The translations under genes were made by a program, and so were the position numbers. A model generated the notes under the pieces. The model was not told the origin of the DNA. It made no database searches and saw nothing but the letters and a program-made list of their open reading frames with translations. DNA of 64,000 nt from Fimbriimonadaceae bacterium (lineage in GTDB: Bacteria > Armatimonadota > Fimbriimonadia > Fimbriimonadales > Fimbriimonadaceae): positions 909,564 through 973,563 of the forward strand of contig CP075366.1 in assembly GCA_019454145.1 (NCBI GenBank), given 5' to 3'. Positions 19,521 through 35,824 of this stretch are shown here, in pieces. The first letter of the stretch is position 1, and the number at the start of each line of letters is the position of its first letter.

Positions 19521-19553
19521 CCCTCCCCAAGTCTGGGGAGGGTTAGGGAGGGG
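19521..19553. repeat. Solo palindrome-plus-tail repeat
   Basis: CCCTCCCC / AAGTCT / GGGGAGGG is a perfect 8-bp stem-loop, followed by TTA and then GGGAGGGG. The same order (palindrome, 3-base spacer, G-rich tail) bounds the DUF559 gene at 35333-35824. Here it stands alone between convergent genes. Confidence 0.6.
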
Positions 19554-19572
19554 TTGAACAAACAGTCAAATA

Positions 19573-35099: not shown

Positions 35100-35349
35100 A
35101 CCTTGCCATCACGTCAAACATTATGTTGAAGGTGTTGCCAGTGGCAAACGAATCCGTTGGTGGAATATCTTAGGCTGGCTCCATGTCAAGCATTGCCCTA
35201 AGTGTCAAGAAGCTCTGGCGTTGCTGCAGTCCTATTTGAATTCTGCATCTCAACTGCGAAAGGAAGCTACCGAAGATGTATCCGGTCTGATGAATCGAAT
35301 GTCGGATGCCATGACCGAAGTTGACCAAAACTCCCCCTCTCCGTTTTAA
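35077..35349 (+). CDS. Zinc-binding anti-sigma-like protein
   Basis: About 90 residues. HVKHCPKC is an H-x3-C-x2-C motif like that of ZAS-type anti-sigma factors, with CHHVKHYVEG before it. There is no membrane helix, so it would be a soluble, redox- or metal-sensitive partner of the upstream sigma factor. The ATG at 35077 follows GGAAG; an ATG at 35065 is possible. The last residues (SPSPF) and the stop codon lie inside the left palindromic repeat of the DUF559 cassette, so the original C-terminus may have been changed. Confidence 0.7.
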   Translation: MTSPVHTEPCHHVKHYVEGVASGKRIRWWNILGWLHVKHCPKCQEALALLQSYLNSASQLRKEATEDVSGLMNRMSDAMTEVDQNSPSPF

Positions 35350-35374
35350 TGGAGAGGGGGTCAGGGGGTGAGGT
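35333..35374 (+). repeat. Left inverted repeat of DUF559 cassette
   Basis: A 10-bp stem (35333-35342 with 35351-35360, loop GTTTTAAT) is followed by TCA and the tail GGGGGTGAGGT (35364-35374). An inverted copy lies at 35786-35824 on the far side of the DUF559 gene. Confidence 0.85.
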
Positions 35375-35766
35375 CAGCCCACCTCCCAGCGTTTGCGACC
35401 AGATCGCTCTTCACAAACCAAAATAGCTTGCTCGATGCACTGTTCTCCCTCAATCCTATTTTCTTCAAAAAACGCAAGGCTCGGAATACGAATCGTCAAA
35501 ATTCCGAGCTCACCTAAAAAATCATCTCGCCTTTTATCTTGCTCTTGTCGAAACATATGCTGCTCACCATCAATTTCAACACAAAGGGAAGCTTCAGCAC
35601 AATAGAAATCCAAAACATACGGCCCGACTTCGTGTTGCCTTCTAAACTTAAACCCTGACTTTTTATGACGGAGTTGCTCCCAAGCAACTCTTTCCGAAAT
35701 GGAACATTCAGCTCGAAGTTCTCGCCCCCGACCAATATTTCGTCGTGTTTTCGGCGGTAAAGCCAT
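35374..35766 (-). CDS. DUF559 domain endonuclease-like protein
   Basis: A 130-residue protein of the DUF559 / very-short-patch-repair-like family with a PD-(D/E)XK-type core: HEVGPYVLDFYCAEASLCVEIDGEQH contains the Asp and the E-x-D pair, here seen as two neighbouring segments (VLDFYC and CVEIDGEQH). ARNIG-like RRNIGRGRELRAE begins the domain. Activity has not been established for the family in general. The gene fills a roughly 490-bp segment bounded by inverted palindromic repeats; its stop overlaps the left repeat's tail. This suggests a mobile or repeat-associated gene. Confidence 0.82.
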   Translation of the reverse strand: MALPPKTRRNIGRGRELRAECSISERVAWEQLRHKKSGFKFRRQHEVGPYVLDFYCAEASLCVEIDGEQHMFRQEQDKRRDDFLGELGILTIRIPSLAFFEENRIEGEQCIEQAILVCEERSGRKRWEVG

Positions 35767-35785
35767 GACATATTATGGACACTAA

Positions 35786-35824
35786 ACCTCACCCCAAACC
35801 CCTCTCCATTAAAACGGAGAGGGG
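35786..35824 (-). repeat. Right inverted repeat of DUF559 cassette
   Basis: ACCTCACCCC (35786-35795), spacer AAA, then a 9-bp stem (35799-35807 with 35816-35824, loop ATTAAAAC). Reverse-complemented, it matches the left copy at 35333-35374 in stem, loop and G-rich tail. Confidence 0.85.

Follow-up and report, generated by a model that had tools for sequence, protein, structure and literature searches.

Short palindromes with a one-sided, G-rich tail were found in Escherichia coli in the 1990s as BoxC, a name replaced by PIT in 2000 and by TM in 2015 (PMC4666352). Holder et al. (2015) reported such repeats in more than 260 genomes, with no mobility gene nearby and with the question of their origin unanswered; for the E. 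coli motif, intrastrand triplex formation was shown in vitro (PMC4666352). PMC8044849 treats comparable repeats of archaea and Deinococcus. In REP/RAYT systems (REPtrons), too, short intergenic palindromes with a one-sided tail are dispersed over the genome, and a small gene lies between inverted copies of matched type. Here, we describe a cassette that combines these traits with a gene of the DUF559 family, whose E. coli member YcjD was placed in the PD-(D/E)XK nuclease superfamily (PMC1189080). The cassette lies in a stretch of 64,000 nt of contig CP075366.1 of a Fimbriimonadaceae bacterium (hereafter the window, whose positions serve as coordinates). Nuclease family and repeats are both known, but we found no paper uniting them: the literature found on DUF559 or ycjD makes no link of either to repeats, and no paper was found joining the related nuclease Vsr with REP.

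The window cassette (Table 1) is bounded by two inverted copies of the palindrome CCCCTCTCC-N8-GGAGAGGGG, with their GGGGTGAGGT tails facing inward around the DUF559 gene, whose stop codon has one base in common with the left tail. The original prediction had placed at 35333-35824 inverted palindromes with a common 8-base loop and inward G-rich tails, with a DUF559 gene filling the space and its stop overlapping a tail; these coordinates and this layout were right. With up to 3 mismatches allowed the window contains two copies of the palindrome, for an expectation of 0.00 from 100 shuffles, and the hairpin of either end is better folded than every one of 200 shuffles (z of -3.9 and -4.6). The open reading frame matches DUF559 (PF04480) with E=4e-23 and 81.8 bits, for a gathering cut-off of 20.6. 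Apart from MTES_1575 no other profile matches it: neither the Y1/HUH tyrosine transposase typical of REPtrons, nor, at E<=0.001, Vsr (PF03852). The feature is probably a mobile element of minimal size, about 490 bp, with a DUF559 nuclease as its sole gene.

Table 1. Parts of the window cassette and of the other two DUF559 loci of the same genome (window positions)
Feature	Position	Strand	Description
Left end, first stem	35333-35342	+	CCCCCTCTCC
Left end, loop	35343-35350	+	GTTTTAAT
Left end, second stem	35351-35360	+	GGAGAGGGGG
Left end, tail	35364-35374	+	GGGGGTGAGGT, after spacer TCA
Left end, whole element	35333..35374	+
DUF559 gene	35374..35766	-	130 aa
Right end	35824-35786	-	CCCCTCTCC-GTTTTAAT-GGAGAGGGG, spacer TTT, tail GGGGTGAGGT; tail points to gene
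Second DUF559 gene (L012)			in-frame stop; ends CTCCCTCCCC...GGGGAGGG-ATTAGGGGTGGGGTTGA, inverted, tails inward
Third DUF559 gene (L013)			ends CCCTCCCCGAAGTTCGGGGAGGG-TAGGGAGGGGTTG, inverted, tails inward
Further listed part of the analysis	19521..19557	+

The association of DUF559 with such repeats is general and specific, and each cassette has its own end pair. Each gene was given the score of the best inverted repeat that joins its two flanks of 350 bp, and scores of at least 16 counted as positive. Inverted palindrome-plus-tail ends surround 70 of a first set of 110 DUF559 genes (64%), made up of relatives and of the 80 top matches among GTDB genomes, whereas permuted flanks give 3.9% and shifted positions in the same loci 1/275 (0.36%). 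Among held-out genes, matching inverted ends were found for 19 of 29 from the same family and for 13 of 27 from other families of the phylum; all sets pooled, 102 of 166 DUF559 genes (about 61%) have them. No palindromic ends flank Vsr genes (0/30), nor is there such a palindrome downstream of any of 11 large helicase-type proteins that contain a DUF559-like domain. The original prediction had itself proposed to look for the repeats around other DUF559 genes, and there they are, at about 61% against 0.4% for shifted positions.

Positive loci come from at least seven phyla (Pseudomonadota, Planctomycetota, Armatimonadota, Patescibacteria, Bacteroidota, Acidobacteriota and Deinococcota), and the element measures about 500 bp where both ends are detected. 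In 73% of these cases the stop codon is overlapped by the 3' repeat or is at most 15 bp away from it. Tails had been expected to face inward, which they do in the window and in 49 of the 63 scored cassettes but not everywhere, since they face outward in Deinococcus and some others. When 30 cassettes from 15 genomes were compared (two to five sampled cassettes each), the end match within a cassette's own pair was the best in 23, and protein similarity tracks end similarity (Mantel r 0.20, exceeding all 999 permutations). The gene itself has a patchy distribution (61/85 and 114/201 genomes), with several copies per genome. In phages, we found two weak matches only.

The repeat is 35-45 bp long and consists of a C/G-rich hairpin and a G-rich tail mirroring the hairpin's G arm. 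This is the build of BoxC/PIT/TM repeats, which are likewise intergenic and dispersed: a C arm, a loop, a G arm, a short spacer and a mirror-image, G-rich third strand. In the window, the tail GGGGGTGAGG is identical to the reversed arm GGGGGAGAGG at 9 of 10 positions, with one T for A, and asymmetric arms that have a good tail and lie near DUF559 genes favour the mirror over the direct match by 195:49. The order of bases makes it possible that the tail serves as the third strand of an intrastrand purine triplex; the repeat's four G runs also allow a G-quadruplex. Yet BoxC/PIT/TM have so far been known as orphans only, with no gene for mobility, and the window class has an 8-nt loop and is off the published stem consensus. 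The stem part of the E. coli TM consensus, CCCTCNCCC-N3-6-GGGNGAGGG-N3-GGGNGAGGG, has no match in the host genome, i.e. the genome of the window, with loops of 3-8 nt allowed; it is matched in many other DUF559-bearing genomes of the phylum. The original prediction had compared the arrangement to REP palindromes around RAYT genes with a PD-(D/E)XK-like protein instead, a comparison that is supported. The cassette differs from REPtrons in its enzyme, a nuclease of PD-(D/E)XK type for which no joining chemistry is known, in the place of an HUH tyrosine transposase, and in its tails, which are of a G-rich type (GGGGTGAGG), reading GGGGTGAGGT or GGGNGGGGTTRA, and not GTAG. Regular variants of the repeat exist as well: in alphaproteobacterial loci such as L021, L026, L031 and L079 the stem-tail spacer contains a second hairpin (GGGGAGGGGGACC-hairpin-GGTGGAGGGG). 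Two DUF559 genes of Sinorhizobium (L217, L218) are flanked by doublets of two TM-type palindromes, tails outward, of about 150 bp, parts of which match many rhizobial plasmids; we take these doublets to recall the RIME elements of rhizobia.

The DUF559 gene of E. coli is ycjD. In K-12, one of the 23 TM copies (TMECO copy 9, 1,351,239-1,351,204) lies between fabI and ycjD, a further TM copy is found directly 3' of ycjD in KE47, and E. coli genomes contain a median of 18 matches to this copy. Two E. coli loci (L214, L226) have a long hairpin of another type 5' of ycjD (ATTCACCTCATTCTGACAAGA...TCTTGTCAGAATGAGGTGAT in KE47), with no TM element there.

The search that the original prediction had suggested, for the motif and for further DUF559 genes, gave 11 copies of the window palindrome in the 2.76 Mb of the host genome (none for the reversed-pattern control) and three DUF559 genes, each flanked by ends of a different type. 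All 11 copies have the tail, always on one side. A solo-repeat map spanning 434 kb of this genome contains 43 palindromes, mostly with a one-sided tail, and 32 of them are intergenic though 86% of the sequence is coding. Among all the loci analysed, two DUF559 genes are decayed but keep their ends, one by an in-frame stop (L012, 1477-1815) and one by deletion of half the gene (L284, 1066-1227), as expected of the life cycle of a mobile element. A Y1 (REP-type) transposase gene (G000:C1:823333-823704) is located near the second DUF559 cassette, with a palindrome copy some 1.5 kb away.

Across genomes, the number of solo repeats follows DUF559 and not Y1/REP transposases. In the 85 genomes of the family, raw counts have a median of 10 palindromes with DUF559 and 2.5 without (p=6e-5), the reversed-pattern control being equal in both. 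In 166 genomes outside the family, where we used the published TM stem pattern, the medians are 3.5 and 0 (p=5e-6). The palindrome count has a partial rank correlation of 0.46 with DUF559, against a value of -0.02 for Y1 transposases.

That cassettes move is supported best by the Deinococcus hpa operon. Four species (D. radiodurans, D. ficus, D. deserti and D. radiophilus) have no cassette in this operon, and the oxidoreductase gene directly follows hpaB. At this very junction D. proteolyticus has a DUF559 cassette whose inverted ends, of 53 bp, are almost perfect, and D. wulumuqiensis a decayed one that retains its palindromic ends. The cassette is elsewhere in two more: between the oxidoreductase gene and hpaE in Deinococcus NW-56 (protein identity 88%) and behind a VOC gene in D. 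aetherius. These differences in presence and position support the small mobile element that had been predicted, and they provide the empty sites in relatives that had been suggested for comparison. Such sites were not to be had everywhere: the mqnC neighbourhood in more distant members of the window's genus was rejected as a clean empty site, as further genes differ. In one relative (L127, G078), the intergenic region after mqnC contains only a solo palindrome with another arm sequence, followed by an arsC-like gene; the equivalent place in the window is occupied by the genes for the sigma factor, the anti-sigma factor and DUF559. Presence and absence of E. coli ycjD was also rejected, as strains without ycjD hold the eef efflux operon there (PMC12817139), and so was Sinorhizobium pSymB, where neighbours differ. 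In Azospirillum, the gene region is present in all seven matching records, without polymorphism.

Within the window's genus, a cassette in one of the species G000 and G081 corresponds to a solo palindrome in the other. The window cassette itself is found at the same site in G081, from which it differs at 7/49 fourfold sites, for 50/167 in mqnC and 37/79 in the sigma-factor gene. The low divergence of the cassette is suggestive of transfer or conversion, in small numbers of sites.

The predicted structure of the window protein (mean pLDDT 89.6) matches NGO0050 of Neisseria (Z 13.4), the homing endonuclease I-Bth0305I (3r3p, Z 12.0) and Vsr (1cw0, Z 9.5). Profile searches also give I-Bth0305I as the nearest homing nuclease (E=8e-4), and nine residues are invariant in 74 relatives (E25, W29, Q44, D53, F54, E64, D66, H70 and R80). 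With its invariant acidic and histidine residues, and compared by fold and residue type, the protein is predicted to share the fold of Vsr and of the EDxHD homing endonucleases. The latter are longer and have extra DNA-binding regions (PMC3943268), whereas DUF559 would be the catalytic domain alone, placed between palindromes; Vsr differs in its genes, which lack palindromic ends, and in its profile, outside which the window protein falls. In Caulobacter, the DUF559 protein VsrA has a functional link to a cytosine methylase and is a predicted mismatch-repair nuclease; in cells without the methylase ScmA it induces the SOS response (PMC12907096), which fits a nuclease able to break chromosomal DNA.

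The explanation that we favour, and hold to be rather probable, is a mobile element without transposase, in which DUF559 cuts DNA, probably its own repeats, and which spreads by break repair. The nuclease would recognise its cognate repeat and cut it, or the DNA beside it. Host break repair might then copy either the whole cassette, which would make it autonomous, or one end alone, which would leave a solo repeat. Palindromic and inverted ends would offer a matching partner to both sides of a cut repeat. Host recombination would be needed for this spread because a purely hydrolytic nuclease cannot join DNA. The closest analogy would be a homing endonuclease joined to a REP-like population of repeats, without the transposase chemistry.

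One might speculate instead that fragile, triplex-forming hot spots collect any small gene and that DUF559 merely lands or persists there. Between strains of E. coli, rearrangement is greater at TM-repeat loci (PMC4666352), and the DUF559 sites of G000 and G081 are in variable intergenic regions, but hitch-hiking is at odds with ends that are paired, inverted and cognate in each cassette, with the 30 Vsr genes devoid of them and with repeat numbers that track DUF559, and we regard it as unlikely. We are a shade more sceptical of DUF559 being a host repair enzyme, for Vsr-like mismatch repair or for the removal of triplexes or hairpins, that is encoded beside its substrate by chance. The methylase-linked VsrA (PMC12907096) and the Vsr-like fold of the model would fit such a role; the patchy distribution, the multiple and decayed copies and the inverted ends fit a mobile element better.

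A transposase of REP type (Y1/RAYT) or another kind could also act in trans on repeats and cassettes, with DUF559 as cargo. Y1 genes are indeed present in 47 of the 61 DUF559-bearing genomes of the family, and the host has two distant ones. Yet Y1 explains nothing of the palindrome counts at constant DUF559 (the partial correlation of -0.02), the 14 DUF559-bearing genomes free of Y1 still have a median of 8 palindromes, and the repeats lack the GTAG tag, all of which makes this reading improbable. Still harder to believe is that the palindromes are ordinary intrinsic terminators flanking a small gene, although both window hairpins are terminator-like by score, in the outward direction. Terminators have no need of identical loops, a conserved G tail or dispersed copies, nor of ends paired by cassette, and BoxC/PIT had no terminator activity in earlier work, as far as PMC4666352 cites it. 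Plain terminators unrelated to DUF559 were the other outcome that the original prediction had set against itself; solo copies are common, but their number tracks the gene. A role in termination may in any case be compatible with nuclease-driven gain or cleavage of repeats.

Several observations weigh against a nuclease-driven mobile element. About 39% of the DUF559 genes have no detectable end pair at the sensitivity used, and E. coli ycjD has repeats on one side only, without an end pair. The first 80 cross-phylum loci were the best matches to a profile of proteins from the host genome itself, which may have inflated the cross-phylum rate. The genome counts are not corrected for phylogeny, and some genomes without DUF559 have many palindromes (one has 41), which could be relics. 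The sites in G000 and G081 differ by more than the cassette alone. Cassette borders show no target-site duplication (longest common word 3.05, for 2.94 in shuffles), which is consistent with spread by host recombination without proving it. Finally, we infer the cutting and copying of repeats by DUF559, a family without known DNA-joining chemistry, whose spread must rely on host repair.

We know of no class of mobile elements in which a hydrolytic nuclease stands alone beside a population of palindromes of triplex type. The odds, in our view, lie slightly in favour of DUF559 cassettes being a widespread and unrecognised class of transposase-free elements, whose nuclease recognises end repeats able to form triplexes or quadruplexes, and which gave rise to the orphan BoxC/PIT/TM repeats in E. 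coli and in hundreds of further genomes. DUF559 is the best candidate so far for the spreader of these repeats. Since it is a very common nuclease family, joining it to BoxC/TM gives each a testable partner. If the nuclease does spread its own repeats by break repair, a population of repeats would have been made without a transposase and built on non-B DNA.
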